Below, piece after piece: positions 1,636 to 10,871 of a stretch of DNA of 36,764 nucleotides. This stretch comes from a virus, in the IMG/VR virus record IMGVR_UViG_3300000117_000088, positions 1 through 36,764 of that record. One strand, given 5' to 3'. The translations under genes were made by a program, and so were the position numbers. Below the pieces are notes generated by a model. It was not told where the DNA came from. It made no database searches and was given only the letters and a program-made list of their open reading frames with translations. How positions within the stretch are numbered: position 1 is the first letter of the stretch; each line of letters opens with the position of its first letter.

Positions 1636-2586
1636 TCAATCTTCGTCAAAAGAAATAGCACGAGATTTTTTCACAACGAGTTCAGCAGTCGAATCTTTCA
1701 AATTTTCAAAAGAACCAAGAACTCTATCCCGAATGTTGTCGTCTTTTCTAAGAGACTCGACATCCACGCCATTCATTACCTTCTTGGCTTTCTCTACCAA
1801 ATCGTTAAGGCTTTTGTCATCAGTGAGATTTCTCCCATCAAAGGTGTCCAAGAAATCTCGGAATCCTTCAACAAAAGAAGATCGGAAAACCTTCTTCTTA
1901 CCGTCTTCGTCAGGCGTAAGTCTTTCTACAAAGTGCTCGACCAATCCAGAGAAGCCCTCACGCAAAGCAACTCGAATCTCGCGTTCTGCCGATTGCCATT
2001 GCTGTGCAGCGCGAGACTGCTCCCGCTCAAAAAGACTCTTAGATATACCTTGAAGAGACTGTGGAGTCTGCGCGACCGAATAATTCCATTCAAAGCGAAA
2101 GTTGTTGCGCAACGCTTCAACTGAAGTGTAATCGTTGGGGTTGAAAAGCCCATCCAAGCGGTCACGAGCCTCAGCAATAACTTGAGGGTACTCATCCATG
2201 AACTCACCAACATTACGCTCCCAATCCAGAGCCAACTTATTGAGCCGCTTCTCCATAAGTTCTACCAACTGGACGGGGAGAAGGTATGTACCTCGTCGAA
2301 AGTGAGAAACCGGGACTGCGATGCGACCGACTTCTCGATTAACCAAACCCCGAATGCTTTTCAGCTTATCAAGGCTTTTGCTCTTCATAAGAATCTTTTG
2401 AACATTAAGACTCTCCTTGTCGGCCTGAGCCTCAATTTCGTCAGTAGAAACTTTACGCTGCATCCCCACAATAGAAGTGCGAACGCTAAGGACGACAGTT
2501 TTTTCCGCAAGCGTTATCTCACCAACCTTGGACCCCGGAGTCAAAAGTTTTTCAACTTCCGCTTTCTGCTCTTGTAGATTTTCCAC
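1636..2586 (-). CDS. DUF3150-like phage protein
   Basis: A 316-residue protein starting at GTG behind GGGAGAGAG. It is charged, mostly helical in appearance and lacks membrane segments. The part around residues 85-150 (VNREVGRIAVPVSHFRRGTY...) and the long helical second half resemble the DUF3150 family, often found near AAA+ ATPase genes in phages and mobile elements. Here an AAA+ gene lies about 1.5 kb upstream in the same orientation, which fits. It has its own good promoter candidate (2630-2658) just upstream. The biochemical role is unknown. Confidence in the coding call is high and in the family name moderate. Confidence 0.75.
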   Translation of the reverse strand: MENLQEQKAEVEKLLTPGSKVGEITLAEKTVVLSVRTSIVGMQRKVSTDEIEAQADKESLNVQKILMKSKSLDKLKSIRGLVNREVGRIAVPVSHFRRGTYLLPVQLVELMEKRLNKLALDWERNVGEFMDEYPQVIAEARDRLDGLFNPNDYTSVEALRNNFRFEWNYSVAQTPQSLQGISKSLFEREQSRAAQQWQSAEREIRVALREGFSGLVEHFVERLTPDEDGKKKVFRSSFVEGFRDFLDTFDGRNLTDDKSLNDLVEKAKKVMNGVDVESLRKDDNIRDRVLGSFENLKDSTAELVVKKSRAISFDED

Positions 2587-3044: not shown

Positions 3045-3254
3045 TTATGCTCCTGCCTTTGTGTGTGTGTGATTACCTTGATGAATGTGACTGTGCCCCT
3101 TAGCGATTTTCTCCCGCGAAACCTCACCACCTGCGAGAGTCTCAATTTGCCTCAAAAGCTTGTCTGCACTCAAATGATTAGCGTCTGAAACTGCACCACC
3201 AATACGTGTAGTAATAGTGCCGTCCTCAAGAACCTCAAATTCGATATTGTCCAT
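3045..3254 (-). CDS. Small protein with a His-rich tail
   Basis: A 69-residue protein starting at ATG, two bases from its upstream neighbour, with the neighbour's last codons (GGAAG) as a weak ribosome site. The body is acidic and soluble (DNIEFEVLEDGTITTRIGG). The C-terminus holds five histidines in a short stretch, GHSHIHQGNHTHTKAGA, which could bind metal. I do not recognise a family. Position and spacing place it in the same transcript as the AAA+ ATPase gene. Confidence 0.65.
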   Translation of the reverse strand: MDNIEFEVLEDGTITTRIGGAVSDANHLSADKLLRQIETLAGGEVSREKIAKGHSHIHQGNHTHTKAGA

Positions 3255-3255
3255 T

Positions 3256-3582
3256 TTAAATCTTCCGCTTTACTGCAACAAAAGAAGAATCGTTTTCAGA
3301 CTTCAAGGTCCAACCAAACTTACGACTTGTTTTTCTAATAACCTCTCTTGAATAAGCCCTATTAATTGCGTTCGCCACTTTGTTAGCAACTGAACTTTCA
3401 GTAATAACTTCACCAGACCTATTAATTTCGTAAGCGTAACCATCGTAGTTACCTAAGATACTTTCAGAACTTTCATGCCGAACGGACAACCCTTCAACGG
3501 TGTCGTTTTCCAAAGCACTCATAAGCAAATCGACGTTTTCCGCTTTGAGCTTAATAGAAGCGGTACTAATTGAATAACATGG
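3256..3582 (-). CDS. Conserved small phage protein, weakly DUF1257/Ycf35-like
   Basis: A 108-residue protein. I chose the ATG at 3582 because AAAGGTAGAGAAG precedes it closely. A longer frame upstream begins inside a hairpin and has no ribosome site. The protein opens MPCYSISTASIKLKAENVDLL and ends with a segment in which AINRAYSREVIRKTSRKFGW precedes a short basic tail. A ferredoxin-like N-terminus followed by a Tyr-Ala/Ser helix and a Lys/Arg-Gly turn is reminiscent of DUF1257/Ycf35 proteins. Those are often encoded beside Ycf46-type AAA ATPases, and such an ATPase lies two genes upstream here. The link is suggestive only. Confidence 0.65.
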   Translation of the reverse strand, partial: PCYSISTASIKLKAENVDLLMSALENDTVEGLSVRHESSESILGNYDGYAYEINRSGEVITESSVANKVANAINRAYSREVIRKTSRKFGWTLKSENDSSFVAVKRKI

Positions 3583-3600
3583 CATCTTCTCTACCTTTCT

Positions 3601-3654: not shown

Positions 3655-4128
3655 TTAATGAAGCGTCTTTTCCCAAATACCACGAGAAAATTCTGCATCC
3701 AGAACATTACCTTCGGAACGAATATCACCTACCCCATAGACCTCTTCATTCACTCGAAGCACGGGAGCCATCCAAACGACGCTCTCCGTAGGCGTAATCA
3801 CTGTGGCGACAATAACCTCTTCTCTCTCTTTTCCCTCAGGAGTATATTCCATTGACTCAAGCTCAATACTCTTACAATAAACCCAAGCTTCTGAAACAAA
3901 GGCTACAGCCACAGCATTTTGATTTTTTGCCGCTGTTCGGAAAGCTTGAAAACATTTTTGCTTATCCTGCGTGGAGGAAAATGGAAGTCCACAAACCATG
4001 GCCTCGCCATCAGTGCGATAAATCACTCCAGCAGGAATCAAATAACCATCGCGTTGCATGTTTTTAGAAGCCAATTCAATGAGCTTACCTGCCTGCAACG
4101 AAAGATCCAAATCAATTTCATTATACAC
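3655..4128 (-). CDS. Hypothetical protein downstream of the AAA+ ATPase
   Basis: A 157-residue protein. The GTG at 4128 is chosen because GGAGGTGTGAA lies directly upstream, overlapping the end of the AAA+ gene. A longer frame runs back into the ATPase gene but has no ribosome site. The protein begins VYNEIDLDLSLQAGKL and contains a mixed alpha/beta body with AVAVAFVSEAWVYCKS and REEVIVATVITP strands. I do not recognise a family. The stop of the ATPase gene (4130-4132) and this start are one base apart, so translation of the two is probably coupled and their products may act together. Confidence 0.7.
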   Translation of the reverse strand: MYNEIDLDLSLQAGKLIELASKNMQRDGYLIPAGVIYRTDGEAMVCGLPFSSTQDKQKCFQAFRTAAKNQNAVAVAFVSEAWVYCKSIELESMEYTPEGKEREEVIVATVITPTESVVWMAPVLRVNEEVYGVGDIRSEGNVLDAEFSRGIWEKTLH

Positions 4129-4129
4129 T

Positions 4130-5632
4130 TCACACCTCCACAGAGCGTCGTTTAGCACTCTTTTTAATATTTGGGCGATAAACACCCTTCGCCGAAGCGG
4201 AAAGAAATCTGCCATTAGCCTGCTTCCGAAGAGCCTCAATCTGAGAAGCCCCAGAAACCGCTACGGGGACCAGATAACCAACAGCATCCTTCAGAGGGAT
4301 GTCCAACGAGAAGGCAAGGTCACAAGCGTTTCGGATCTCCGCACCAGTAAGCTCCTCATCGAGAGGAACCTTCTTGTCTTCGATTCCGTACGCCTTCTTA
4401 TGGATAGGCCAAATCTTCTCTCGCTCTTCCTTGTTGGGAAGGTCGAAGAACCATGTACCGTAAGAGAATCGTCGTTTAATCTCAGGGGAGAGGTCGGCCT
4501 CACGGTTGCATGTCGCAACAAAGAATACATCCTCCTCGCCAACCGCTTCGATTACCTTGAGTGCGGAGCGTAGGTTCTGTTCACTCTGACCAACTAAAGA
4601 GCCTTTCAGTCCACTCAGGTCAAGCTGAACGGTAGGAACCTTCGCCTCATTACCCAAAGCTTTGGCGACCGCAGACTTCGCTGCCCCCGGAGGCCCGACA
4701 AAAATCACCCCACGTGCTTTCTTGTCTTCCATAAACCCCAAGAGACCGCCGTGGAGAGCCTGAGAGACACCAGACGAGTCTCCAGTACCATTCGTTGCAC
4801 CAGCGAGTCCTTTCTCGATCTCGTCAATAAAAACGACAGCCTTCGGTGGGCGTTTACCAGCGATCAGGTTGTTCAAGAAACCTTTGACAGATTCGCAACC
4901 ACCAATGGTCTCGAAGGTATCAGGACCACTGTACACGGACACACCGGGAGTCTGCTCCACGAGTCTACGTTTACGTTCCCAGAGAATTTCCAGATCCAGT
5001 CCGTCCTTCGTTAGCGACTGGGCGGCAGCTTGTTCCGCTGCGAATGCCGCAAGACCTCGAAGGGCATCGACCGCACGAGTTTCAATATCAGAGTCTGGGG
5101 CGGCAAGTTCTGCGGCTTCATGAAGTTCGAGAATGATGCCACGCAAGGCTTCTTCACTCGGCAACTCCTCGTCCAGAACCATTACATCCTGCACAATCTC
5201 AGCCGGAAGGTCGCAGTCAGGGCACAGGATAATCAAGGTGCGCTGATTCGATTTGAACTCATCTCGGAGATTCCAAATAGCCTGAGTGACGAGGGCGGCT
5301 AAGCTATCATTCCCGCTCCCGCTTTGGAAATAACGGTGCAGATTGATCGCAAAGAAGACTGTCTTATTAGGAAATGCCTTAGCGTAGGCAAGAGCATCGG
5401 CTGGAGAAGACACTGTGGAAGGCTCCGCACCATCTAGGACGTTTTCCAAAACCGCTAGGCCTTCTTCGTTAACCGCACTGAATCCAGAGGCAGCATCCCA
5501 TCGAACTTTAGGACTCCCACCGTTTACCCCAACCGAAATATCCTGCATAGTTGCCGCAGGGTCGGGGGTACGAATCGCTATAATAGGAGTGCTAACCCGA
5601 CGTGCACCCTTTACTCTCTCAACAATATTCAT
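4130..5632 (-). CDS. AAA+ ATPase with permuted motif order (Ycf46-like)
   Basis: A 500-residue protein when started at the ATG at 5632 (GAGAG just upstream). An in-frame ATG 17 codons earlier is less likely. The N-terminal half (about 85-180) has the FFAINLHRYF...TLIILCPDCDLP layout of Ycf46-type ATPases. The AAA+ core is unusual. The Walker B-like VVFIDEIEKG comes first, at about 266-275, then GDSSGVSQAL, and only then Walker A GPPGAAKS, at about 313-320. The sensor-1-like FFVATCN (about 370) and the Arg finger KRRF (about 386) follow. In normal AAA+ proteins Walker A precedes Walker B, so this core appears circularly permuted. It lies in a leftward operon with an arginase-fold gene upstream and small genes downstream. 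Substrate and partners are unknown. Confidence 0.88.
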   Translation of the reverse strand: MNIVERVKGARRVSTPIIAIRTPDPAATMQDISVGVNGGSPKVRWDAASGFSAVNEEGLAVLENVLDGAEPSTVSSPADALAYAKAFPNKTVFFAINLHRYFQSGSGNDSLAALVTQAIWNLRDEFKSNQRTLIILCPDCDLPAEIVQDVMVLDEELPSEEALRGIILELHEAAELAAPDSDIETRAVDALRGLAAFAAEQAAAQSLTKDGLDLEILWERKRRLVEQTPGVSVYSGPDTFETIGGCESVKGFLNNLIAGKRPPKAVVFIDEIEKGLAGATNGTGDSSGVSQALHGGLLGFMEDKKARGVIFVGPPGAAKSAVAKALGNEAKVPTVQLDLSGLKGSLVGQSEQNLRSALKVIEAVGEEDVFFVATCNREADLSPEIKRRFSYGTWFFDLPNKEEREKIWPIHKKAYGIEDKKVPLDEELTGAEIRNACDLAFSLDIPLKDAVGYLVPVAVSGASQIEALRKQANGRFLSASAKGVYRPNIKKSAKRRSVEV

Positions 5633-5685
5633 TTCTCTCAACCTTTCCGGCAGTTCTCCCAACCGCCAACACCCTTTAAGCACAA

Positions 5686-6573
5686 CTAAGTGTTGTTTGC
5701 AACCATTAAATTGGGTGACAGAGAAAAAGATCTCTTTTTACAAGCATCGTGACCACCTATTTTTTGGTAACCATCGTTGCAGTCTAGACAAACACCCTCA
5801 CCACCAGACAACCCGTCAAAAAGGGTTTCTGCCTGAAAGTCCATCCAAGGAGGAGTCCAAGCCGAAGACCGACAGGAGAATACTGTACTTACGCGAGACC
5901 TTTCAGCCTCCCTAGCTACCCAATCGCTCCAACAAGTAAAATGTACACTACCGCACGACTCCAGCGCGACAATATGCTCAGGCGGCTCCCAAAAACCATT
6001 CGACGAGAACTCAGCCAAACCTTTCCAATCAGGGTAAACAATGGTGACACTTTCTACTAAACCAGCGGAGACGCCATGGTAAAGCCACGAGCCGCAATCA
6101 AGAACTCCCCTTTTCTTCTCATTAGCTACGACGCTAGAATCATAACCCAAATCCCCGTGAGCATCGAAGTGAACAACATTTAAAGGTTCCCCACAATATG
6201 CTTCTTGAAGCGCGGAATACCCGTGGGCATGAGAGTCCGCATAGAAAAACTCATAATCCCCAGCAAAGTAGAACCTTTTGTTAATTGAATTTAAAAAGCT
6301 ATCGATGCTGACTGTACCTTTATGAGCATGAGCATCACAAACCTTAAATGGGTCAACACCCACTGCCGCAAAAGCGTCGTAACGAGCCTGCCAAATAAAA
6401 TCTTGGACTTCCGAAGAAAAACTTTCCGAGTGACCCCAATCAAACAAATATACGCTAGGTATAGTCTCTTTTTTACCTGTTTGCTTTGAAAGAAAACTTA
6501 TGTCTCTTTCTCTGGCTTCCACCCCGTTCCAAACAAAGAAATCAAAATCAATACTTAAAAAATCTACACTCAC
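5686..6573 (-). CDS. Arginase/deacetylase-fold protein, UPF0489-like
   Basis: A 295-residue protein starting at GTG behind AAGGAGG. It opens MSVDFLSIDFDFFVWNG and carries YADSHAHGYSAL and then VVHFDAHGDLGYD near residue 135. The DAHGD motif and the earlier SIDFDFF strand match metal-binding loops of the arginase/ureohydrolase fold, and the overall form resembles UPF0489 proteins. A DCGSWLYHGV segment follows. The C-terminal part has several cysteines (CLDCNDGYQ, then ACKKR) that could bind a further metal. The substrate is unknown. It is the first gene after a strong promoter candidate and is followed closely by the AAA+ ATPase gene. Confidence 0.8.
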   Translation of the reverse strand: MSVDFLSIDFDFFVWNGVEARERDISFLSKQTGKKETIPSVYLFDWGHSESFSSEVQDFIWQARYDAFAAVGVDPFKVCDAHAHKGTVSIDSFLNSINKRFYFAGDYEFFYADSHAHGYSALQEAYCGEPLNVVHFDAHGDLGYDSSVVANEKKRGVLDCGSWLYHGVSAGLVESVTIVYPDWKGLAEFSSNGFWEPPEHIVALESCGSVHFTCWSDWVAREAERSRVSTVFSCRSSAWTPPWMDFQAETLFDGLSGGEGVCLDCNDGYQKIGGHDACKKRSFSLSPNLMVANNT

Positions 6574-7472: not shown

Positions 7473-7604
7473 ATGGATTTGTTTTCTTTAGGTAATAAGC
7501 CTCTCCAGTATGCTGGTCAAATAGCTAGCTCTTTGGTTAAAATAGCCGAAATACTTGAGAGACTAGAGAAGCTTCTTGAAAAACAAATCGCTGAAGATAA
7601 CTAG
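7473..7604 (+). CDS. 43-residue amphipathic helical peptide
   Basis: A short gene with a clear ribosome site (AAGGAG, nine bases before the ATG). The peptide begins MDLFSLGNKPLQYAGQIASS and its second half, LVKIAEILERLEKLLEKQIA, has leucine and isoleucine at heptad spacing, as in a short coiled coil. It is the last gene of the plus-strand group. Its TAG stop (7602-7604) overlaps the TAG stop of the convergent protease gene (7601-7603 read on the minus strand) in one CTAG. The start signal supports expression. The function is unknown. Confidence 0.6.
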   Translation: MDLFSLGNKPLQYAGQIASSLVKIAEILERLEKLLEKQIAEDN

Positions 7605-8644
7605 TCCACTTCTATTTCTCTATTAAGTCTCAACTCGTTACCATTGGAGTCTTGCACTTTAAAGGTAACAAACTTTGACCCTAAGCCAGCTAAGCCTGTC
7701 CAATTATAAAGACCAGCGAAGCCAGAAAGTAATTCGGCTTCTGGAAATACTTTTTTTACATCTCCCCTATCGTAACAGCACGGTAAGGATATCGCGTACT
7801 CGTCACCTACCCATAAAGAGACTAAAGGCTCTATGGAACCCGTGGTAGAAAAAGCCCAACCACCTACTATCTCTATGCCTTTCGCAGTAGAGTCGGGCCA
7901 CTCCATGTTGGCTTGAATCCCGCCTGAGATAGTATTTAAAATCCACTCTTTGTGGCCTACCCACGTTAAATCGGTATACGTGGTTAAAGTCCCTAGTGCA
8001 CAGCGGCCATCTTCTATTCTTACAGCAATGCCGTACGCTAAACCGTCTGAGCCAACAAGAGGAGACCCTGAGTCGCCGTGACAAACAGAAGCATCTTCTA
8101 GAGTAAGGCAAATTGCATTAACATCTAGAAAATGTTCGCACGAAACAATCTCCCCTACTCCTGTCCAATGCGGCCTAACGACATCAATATTGATGTTGTC
8201 TGGGTGCCAAGAATAATTCCCCCAACCCCCGACAGTACCTTCCCAAGCACCAAGAGGTGGAGAAGAAATTCCTATATTTAGAGTCTCAACACCCCAAGCA
8301 GGTGGGGATATTCTTGCCAGTGCTAAATCGTGAGATCTGAAGTTATCCCAATCTGGATGAGTCACCCATTCCACGACATCGTGCGTAGTTATGTTCTCTC
8401 CTAAATAAGAAATCCCAACTTGAGCAGTCTCAGCCGATTTATCGCAATGTGCTGCCGTAACTAACCAAGCAGGGGCTACCAAGAACGCAGAACATGGCCC
8501 AACTTCACCATCTACTCTAGCTAGCCAAGACGGTGGTCGGTCTTCATAAGGCTTACCACCAATCAACTTCGGGGATTCTATTGCCGGTTGCTCTAAATTA
8601 ACTGGGCTAAAAGACAAAGCAAAAGCTAAAACCAAAGCAACCAT
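7601..8644 (-). CDS. Secreted trypsin-like serine protease (family S1)
   Basis: A 347-residue protein starting at ATG behind AGGGGGT. The first 13 or so residues are hydrophobic and resemble a signal peptide. A zymogen-like junction, SPKLIGG, follows at about 25-30. The catalytic triad is visible: His66 in LVTAAHC, Asp106 in SHDLALARI and Ser192 in CHGDSGSPLVG. Cys51 and Cys67 can form the usual disulfide. The residue in the S1-pocket position (six before the catalytic Ser) is Ser, not Asp, so classical trypsin specificity is doubtful. After about residue 250 there is an extra domain with GWAF...DV...FPEAELLSGF features, like accessory domains of secreted bacterial enzymes. S1 proteases are rare in phages. 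It faces the plus-strand genes convergently. Confidence 0.9.
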   Translation of the reverse strand: MVALVLAFALSFSPVNLEQPAIESPKLIGGKPYEDRPPSWLARVDGEVGPCSAFLVAPAWLVTAAHCDKSAETAQVGISYLGENITTHDVVEWVTHPDWDNFRSHDLALARISPPAWGVETLNIGISSPPLGAWEGTVGGWGNYSWHPDNINIDVVRPHWTGVGEIVSCEHFLDVNAICLTLEDASVCHGDSGSPLVGSDGLAYGIAVRIEDGRCALGTLTTYTDLTWVGHKEWILNTISGGIQANMEWPDSTAKGIEIVGGWAFSTTGSIEPLVSLWVGDEYAISLPCCYDRGDVKKVFPEAELLSGFAGLYNWTGLAGLGSKFVTFKVQDSNGNELRLNREIEVD

Positions 8645-9354: not shown

Positions 9355-9657
9355 TTAATTAGGCGGGTTTGACCCTATTGCAGTAACTACACGCATCGGA
9401 GAAGACTTTGCAACACCTAAATTAGACTCAACGACTTGAGAATCTAAATAAGGTATCACAGTTAAACCAAAGACACCGCCTGAAGCACTTTTTAGGCTCA
9501 CCTCAGTTATGTGAAGCTTTTCTTGTATTGCTATGTCCCTGTACCTAAAATCTACAGTGACTCGAACACAAGCGTCACCAACAACAACGACTTCCTTGAC
9601 GTTGCGTGATTGAGCTAAGGCAACCTTAACAAAGTTCTCTGCTTGCGCTGGTGTCAA
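9355..9657 (-). CDS. Hypothetical protein coupled to the tubulin-like gene
   Basis: A 100-residue protein starting at TTG (9655-9657) and overlapping the stop of the upstream tubulin-like gene as TTGA, with GGAG eight bases upstream. It begins TPAQAENFVKVALAQS and then has alternating strands (VKEVVVVGDACVRVTVDFRY, KLHITEVSL, VFGLTVIPYL), suggesting a small beta-rich domain. No family is recognised. The overlap suggests coupled translation and possibly a shared task with the GTPase-like protein. Confidence 0.6.
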   Translation of the reverse strand: MTPAQAENFVKVALAQSRNVKEVVVVGDACVRVTVDFRYRDIAIQEKLHITEVSLKSASGGVFGLTVIPYLDSQVVESNLGVAKSSPMRVVTAIGSNPPN

Positions 9658-10871
9658 GGGTAACGCTCCATAGAGAGAGCTTCAAGCTTTCTGTAGCGTG
9701 CACTAGGCCGTTTAAGACCACTTATAATAGTGTAAATCCTCAATCCGGCGCGATCATCCTCATAGACACCTCGATGAACAGTCGCTGCACCCGTCATAGT
9801 TGCTAACATGTCAAAAGCATAATCAATTATATTCGGTAATCCTTCAACGTTCTCGAAGGTGTCTTTCCCACCGACAATAATTGCAGAGGCACACGTCGCA
9901 GTCGTAAGATCAAACCCATCAGCTAACAGGGTCTTGCTCAAGGACTCCTTAAGTTGCTTAAAGACCTCAGTCTCATCGTTAAGCTTTGCGGGATGAATAC
10001 TTGTAACTCCCATAATCGTGTGACCACCTGCTTTGGTGATAGTCTGGTAATCAGCAGGATCAAAAGAAGTATAATCAGAATGCTTTGAACTTACACGGTT
10101 GAATATATCGAACAACGTAGCCACGTTAGCATTTATAGTCGGCCAGAAGTTCTTCATCGTGAGCTTCTTACTATTACCGTAAAGCTTTTGCGTCCTATCA
10201 TTATCTAAAACAAGTAGTGGTGAGATAGAGTTTGCTTCCGCAAGATCGGAAACTTTACTGGCAAGCGTATAAGAATTTGTAGCGACTTTGACGGAAGTTG
10301 CCTCCCCATTAGTGGGGAGTGTCATTAAAACGCCAACTCTTGAATCAACATCTTCGACATAACCACAATACTGCAAGTACTTCTTTGCAATCATGATCAA
10401 AGGGATTAAGCTCCCACCACCACTACCACCACCTGCACCCGCGCAGATAATTAAATGATCTACATGCTTACCAAATATCTGCTTCATTGCGTTGTAGACG
10501 TGCTGTTGATTTTTTACGAGAGCATCTTCACCGGCAACCATATCTTTGCCAGCACCGCCAGCACCCGCCTCTAATAATATCTTCTGGCTTTCCGGCACCC
10601 CAATACCGTGCAGGTCTTGAGGTGAAGTGTTGACACAAATTGTTTTATTGTAGCCTAGAGAGTAAAAAGCTTCCGCTAATCTACCGCCGCCTTGCCCGCT
10701 CCCTACAAAAGCATAGCGGACAGAACCTCCCACGGTATTCTCTACTGTCTCTTCCTCTTCCTCTGGGATGTCGTAATCTTCTAAAGCTAAAATAGGTAAA
10801 GAATCTTCTCCATTGCTTCTTGTCTCTTCTTTAAGAGAAACAGATTCTTTATTTTTTTGATAGTCACCCAT
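9654..10871 (-). CDS. Tubulin/FtsZ-like GTPase
   Basis: A 405-residue protein starting at ATG behind GGGGAC. An acidic N-terminal extension of about 50 residues precedes a Rossmann-like start, YAFVGSGQGGGRLAEAF (about 54-69), like the first loop of FtsZ. The tubulin signature appears as ICAGAGGGSGGGS (about 142-154), in place of GGGTGTG. LDNDRTQKLYG and FWPTINANVATLFDIF (about 243-257) occupy the region of the FtsZ T7 loop, but the usual acidic pair there seems to be replaced or shifted. It differs clearly from the PhuZ of nucleus-forming jumbo phages. It lies next to head and packaging genes, so a role in positioning or moving capsids or DNA is possible but is inference. Confidence 0.85.
   Translation of the reverse strand: MGDYQKNKESVSLKEETRSNGEDSLPILALEDYDIPEEEEETVENTVGGSVRYAFVGSGQGGGRLAEAFYSLGYNKTICVNTSPQDLHGIGVPESQKILLEAGAGGAGKDMVAGEDALVKNQQHVYNAMKQIFGKHVDHLIICAGAGGGSGGGSLIPLIMIAKKYLQYCGYVEDVDSRVGVLMTLPTNGEATSVKVATNSYTLASKVSDLAEANSISPLLVLDNDRTQKLYGNSKKLTMKNFWPTINANVATLFDIFNRVSSKHSDYTSFDPADYQTITKAGGHTIMGVTSIHPAKLNDETEVFKQLKESLSKTLLADGFDLTTATCASAIIVGGKDTFENVEGLPNIIDYAFDMLATMTGAATVHRGVYEDDRAGLRIYTIISGLKRPSARYRKLEALSMERYP

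Follow-up and report, generated by a model that had tools for sequence, protein, structure and literature searches.

AAA+ proteins belong to the best-studied motors; the order of their motifs is treated as fixed and is used for their detection. A gene located on the stretch of DNA analysed here (the whole 36,764 nucleotides of IMG/VR virus record IMGVR_UViG_3300000117_000088, referred to as the window) therefore raises the question of whether an AAA+ core can place Walker B before Walker A and still operate as an ATPase. The window is of phage origin, as the record is classed as a virus and the sequence encodes a portal protein, a UvsX-like recombinase, a single-strand binding protein, a DNA polymerase and a helicase, together with a weak terminase match. 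It also carries a divergent FtsZ/TubZ-like GTPase gene (9654-10871, minus strand; Pfam Tubulin 5e-6, TubZ C-terminal 9e-4), which among the loci examined is confined to the window and its near-identical neighbour.

The gene and its parts, all on the minus strand, are listed below, where residue numbers refer to the longer, 517-aa reading of the open reading frame from GTG 5683; the ATG at 5632 corresponds to the start position in most homologues.

4130..5632, minus strand: permuted AAA+ ATPase gene, 500 aa from the ATG; Pfam AAA 4.5e-15
4874..5635, minus strand: N-terminal domain, without a P-loop
4715..4840, minus strand: moved core segment beta3-alpha3, containing Walker B
4820..4837, minus strand: Walker B VVFIDE, residues 283-288
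4535..4714, minus strand: core segment beta1-alpha1-beta2-alpha2
4673..4696, minus strand: Walker A GPPGAAKS, residues 330-337, in which Ala replaces the Gly that precedes Lys
4589..4600, minus strand: pore-loop-1-like SLVG, residues 362-365
4505..4525, minus strand: sensor 1 FFVATCN, residues 387-393
4466..4477, minus strand: Arg-finger region KRRF, residues 403-406
4217..4345, minus strand: C-terminal helical lid, residues 447-489, helical in the model

The encoded protein thus possesses Walker A, Walker B, a sensor 1 and Arg finger that follow them, and a C-terminal lid, as AAA+ proteins do. An earlier note on this DNA had reported that VVFIDEIEKG and GDSSGVSQAL precede GPPGAAKS and that FFVATCN and KRRF come after it, and this reading was correct: the first two occupy residues 283-292 and 301-310, so that Walker B starts 47 residues before Walker A. 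A match to hhhhDE within 60 residues before the P-loop was obtained in 0.4% of shuffles.

The same note had interpreted the core as circularly permuted, with the Walker B strand relocated towards the N-terminus. A profile search with phrog_8638, a Ycf46-like family of normally ordered phage proteins, allows this interpretation to be made more precise. The profile matched the window in four pieces, all significant (E 1e-16 to 8e-10), which in coding order correspond to profile positions 18-286, 366-406, 306-365 and 407-558 (window 5635-4874, 4840-4715, 4714-4535 and 4531-4133, respectively). The first piece, colinear with the profile, is the N-terminal domain, and the last, likewise colinear, includes the lid; the two middle units are exchanged and abut without a gap, while profile positions 287-305, representing the linker before beta1, are absent. 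A full-length colinear match is thus lacking, and the four significant pieces, together with a core identity of up to 45%, indicate common descent. Normally ordered relatives are matched by phrog_8638 in one piece. The strand relocation was hence borne out by these pieces, and also by the segment profiles described below, and the core is indeed permuted; it is, however, an internal swap between two neighbouring units of the core and not a circular permutation of the whole domain, since the N-terminal domain, beta4-beta5 and the lid retain their original places.

In order to place this protein among its relatives, homologues were gathered from phage records, viral contigs and bacterial contigs. 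Segment HMMs identified 89 ORFs in the order N-B-A-S and, following removal of duplicates, 71 permuted and 57 normal proteins were obtained, so that the homologues with the same order whose existence the earlier note had left to be established are numerous. The bins to which contigs with permuted copies were assigned include Acidobacteria, Gemmatimonadetes, Planctomycetes, Nitrospira and Myxococcales. In two bacterial genomes that contain a permuted gene a second Ycf46-like ORF, apparently of normal order, is located elsewhere (G006:C16:144575-146104 and G008:C4:23311-24639). A permuted copy, gp103, is also encoded by the complete genome of the isolated phage Tunturi_3 of Tunturiibacter psychrotolerans, and phrog_8638 matches it in four separate stretches; the description of this phage (PMC11924767) does not mention an ATPase in its text.

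These copies bear on the possibility that the order is an artefact, generated by a rearrangement during assembly, by a frameshift or by a DE motif that happens to lie beside an ordinary core. The window is a shotgun metagenome contig, and a related contig (L025, of which L074 is the same contig) has a broken copy, both of which would fit such an origin. However, the 71 non-redundant homologues share the order, and they derive from many samples, from bacterial MAGs and from the genome of an isolated phage; the order is thus neither due to chance nor to misassembly, and an artefact is hardly credible. In addition, the second Walker B after the P-loop that would complete a normal core, a possibility raised by the earlier note, was found in none of the permuted members: the distance from the end of alpha2 to the sensor-1 strand is just 3-9 residues (an intein-bearing member aside), whereas the same gap in normal relatives has a median of 46 residues and contains Walker B. 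The broken copy itself (L025:2900-4550) is a permuted ATPase gene that a frameshift has interrupted and whose P-loop region is lost; it is either a decayed copy or an assembly error.

The number of events that gave rise to this order was assessed with trees of the core, for which each segment had been aligned on its own. A branch with UFBoot 100 divides the two orders in both core trees and, with FastTree, the 68 permuted proteins all fall into one group, which points to one permutation event. The swapped order therefore seems, as far as these trees tell, to go back to a single origin among normally ordered phage relatives. The nearest of these are probably Corndogvirus gp100 and the group formed by L115, L166 and L168, the support for this sister group being UFBoot 77-92 (92 when Stenotrophomonas phage Summit is included); Summit is itself a possible alternative sister of the permuted clade. 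None of the 71 permuted and 57 normal proteins was an intermediate in which the Walker A or the Walker B segment is doubled.

The next point concerns the manner in which the rearranged chain may fold. The AlphaFold prediction (54 family members) has a mean pLDDT of 87 and a pTM of 0.75, with most core blocks above 90. Its strands, in chain order 282-286, 324-329, 351-354, 386-392 and 410-412, represent beta3, beta1, beta2, beta4 and beta5, in place of the AAA+ chain order beta1-2-3-4-5, and helices are predicted at 306-320 in the moved segment and at 418-489 in the lid region. With VIA-align, residues 241-497 could be superposed both on Vps4 (Z 16.8, 213 aligned, rmsd 3.1) and on p97 D2 (approximately 200 aligned, rmsd 2.4-2.8); the whole protein was superposed on p97 (Z 17.9, 404 aligned, rmsd 5.6), with the N-terminal domain aligned to the p97/Cdc48 D1 region. 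About 45 core residues were left unaligned, nearly as many as the moved segment contains. Provided that beta2 and beta4 are matched, only strand 282-286 can occupy the slot between them, and the model therefore suggests that the Walker B strand would take its usual place beside Walker A in the AAA+ sheet, whose strands run 5-1-4-3-2 in space. In a search of viral structures (BFVD) the top three matches were phage proteins annotated ycf46 (TM ~0.6).

A monomer model of this kind is also compatible with an arrangement in trans, in which beta3-alpha3 swaps into the neighbouring ring subunit and active sites are built between subunits. However, the single-chain model is confident across most of the core, and the linker that leads to the first core strand, as measured from the GG motif, is shorter in permuted proteins, in which this strand is beta3, than in normal relatives, in which it is beta1 (median 19 versus 28 residues), leaving the moved strand little reach to a neighbouring subunit. 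An active site in trans is thus improbable, and one formed in cis, within a single chain, appears to be the better reading.

Retention of the catalytic set, as put forward in the earlier note, was confirmed across the family: Walker A (GxxGxxK[ST]) is present in 69/69 permuted proteins, the DE of Walker B in 67/69 (the other two members having EE), the sensor-1 Asn in 68/69 and the Arg pattern in 67/69, R405 being invariant in the 54-sequence alignment. The pore-loop-like SLVG is found in 48/71 permuted proteins, and its G365 is invariant in A1 and A2. A comparison of two copies that are 95% identical, one being that of the window, gave a dN/dS of 0.056 over the ATPase and of 0.009 over the moved segment. 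In one permuted ATPase (L073:5971-7929) an insert of approximately 160 aa with intein-like ends lies inside the sensor-1 motif (ATC/N); intein placement of this sort is typical of essential active sites.

The P-loop differs in one position, as 48/71 permuted proteins, against 0/57 normal ones, have Ala or Ser instead of the Gly before Lys, which amounts to approximately 10 changes on the tree. This loss may weaken hydrolysis, although MoxR/RavA ATPases with AKS or AKT are active. Together with the two EE members, the replacement is what could be expected of a pseudo-ATPase, a protein in which the swap and the Gly-to-Ala change abolished hydrolysis and left a nucleotide-binding or purely structural ring. 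Such a protein is nevertheless unlikely, considering that there is almost no variation in the Walker A Lys, the Walker B Glu, the sensor-1 Asn and the Arg region, that very strong purifying selection acts on the P-loop and moved segments, and that about a third of the permuted members retain the standard GK[ST].

The genes that accompany the ATPase in the window, all on the minus strand, are as follows.

5686..6573, minus strand: arginase-like gene (weak match to arginase / UPF0489), lying immediately upstream of the ATPase
3655..4128, minus strand: protein directly after the ATPase, its GTG at 4128 lying one base past the ATPase stop
3256..3585, minus strand: divergent DUF1257 (Ycf35)-like protein (hhalign to the classical DUF1257 cluster 95%)
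3045..3254, minus strand: divergent DUF2997-like protein (hhalign 76%, E 2e-5)
1636..2586, minus strand: mostly helical DUF3150-family protein (Pfam DUF3150 7e-7; model pLDDT 90)

The Pfam search gave no match for the DUF1257-like and DUF2997-like genes of the window, and their identities therefore rest on comparison of family profiles, which is of moderate strength. Pfam does recognise DUF1257 and DUF2997 in related loci. Within approximately 6.5 kb of the permuted ATPase a DUF3150-like gene was observed in 60/71 loci, a DUF1257-like gene in 60/71 and a DUF2997-like gene in 58/71, all three occurring together in 54/71; these counts are lower bounds because contig ends cut some loci. The corresponding numbers at normal loci are 5/57, 20/57 and 17/57. 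The permuted ATPase thus heads a conserved module with DUF1257-like, DUF2997-like and DUF3150 proteins. A structure search with the DUF3150 neighbour returned generic helical-bundle matches only, and DUF3150 was absent from the open-access literature searched. Pfam matches additionally placed a radical-SAM 4Fe-4S protein near the permuted ATPase in 10/71 loci.

The earlier note had suggested an undescribed module on account of the gene that follows at one-base spacing and the arginase-fold gene that precedes. Both genes lie where it had placed them and a module is present, although its members are others than those named: among the loci examined, the protein after the ATPase is limited to the window and the near-identical neighbour, and relatives of the arginase-like gene are found near the ATPase in only three loci (the window, the near-identical neighbour and L042, where it lies downstream of the ATPase), for which reason this gene was rejected as a module member. 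A relationship to the anti-phage defence system IetAS, in which the ATPase IetA is paired with a subtilisin-like IetS gene, was considered and rejected, as only partial, low-score IetA matches were obtained. The only protease nearby is a trypsin-type serine protease, encoded approximately 1.9 kb upstream (7601-8644, minus strand; PF00089 2.5e-20) with an N-terminal hydrophobic stretch, and this gene is not conserved with the ATPase.

Taken as a whole, we consider it likely that this protein is a Ycf46-like phage AAA+ ATPase whose core halves were exchanged and which refolded into a working ring remodeller. The Walker A unit beta1-alpha1-beta2-alpha2 and the Walker B unit beta3-alpha3 would have traded places, most likely once, in the ancestor of the clade, and probably by way of a partial tandem duplication followed by deletion. 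The chain would then refold to the sheet typical of AAA+ proteins, bringing Walker B next to Walker A in three dimensions, and ATP would consequently still be bound and hydrolysed, as the conservation and the model suggest. In view of its relatives, of the conservation of the pore loop and of its alignment to both tiers of p97, a ring remodeller is the favoured reading of its role: the ring is most likely hexameric, as in Cdc48/Vps4-type relatives, and would combine a D1-like N-terminal tier that is inactive with a single active, permuted tier; through its pore, lined by the SLVG loop, a protein substrate may be pulled or remodelled. The DUF1257-, DUF2997- and DUF3150-like proteins may act as adaptors or substrates, and the remodeller would serve phage infection together with these three neighbours. 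A wider proposition, which we advance tentatively and regard as rather less likely to hold than to fail, is that this is the first natural AAA+ lineage with an exchange of core units, arising in one event and present in phages of several phyla, in which the altered connectivity and P-loop change the coupling of ATP hydrolysis to the pore and to a DUF3150 partner.

A naturally reordered family means that the AAA+ core can be rewired and yet be kept by selection, and it lets one examine, in a system that nature supplies, which links among Walker A, Walker B and the pore loop are important. The swapped order also explains why profile searches see such proteins only in fragments and, since an isolated phage carries a permuted ATPase, the family can be studied now.

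Among known systems, the closest are the members of phrog_8638, which include Corndogvirus gp100, Rhizobium phages L338C and RHph_I4, and Streptococcus satellite phage Javan368. They share with the window ATPase a homologous N-terminal domain, the core motifs and the lid, and some of their loci also have DUF1257, DUF2997 and DUF3150 neighbours. They differ in that Walker A comes before Walker B, the linker before the first core strand is longer, the P-loop is always xGK[ST] and a DUF3150 neighbour is rare. Ycf46, Cdc48-p97 and Vps4 resemble the window ATPase structurally, with p97 D1-D2 matching the whole protein and Vps4 and p97 D2 the core; in contrast to the window ATPase they have the standard strand order, and its N-terminal tier, being without a P-loop, also sets it apart from this group. 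In cyanobacteria, a DUF2997-ycf35 (DUF1257)-fed7 ferredoxin cluster has been described (PMC4284462), to which two of the phage module genes are related; by profile comparison the DUF1257-DUF2997 pair is adjacent in the window as well, but this part of the window showed no ferredoxin and instead contains the ATPase and the DUF3150 gene. The open-access literature searched yielded permuted methylases and no earlier AAA+ protein with such an order, an absence that is weak evidence in a search of this scope. Circularly permuted P-loop GTPases are already known in YjeQ/RsgA and YlqF, and these resemble the window ATPase in being P-loop NTPases of altered motif order and preserved fold. In these GTPases, however, it is the G4-G5 motifs that have moved, whereas in the window ATPase, of the ASCE/AAA+ type, Walker B and its helix have moved within the core.
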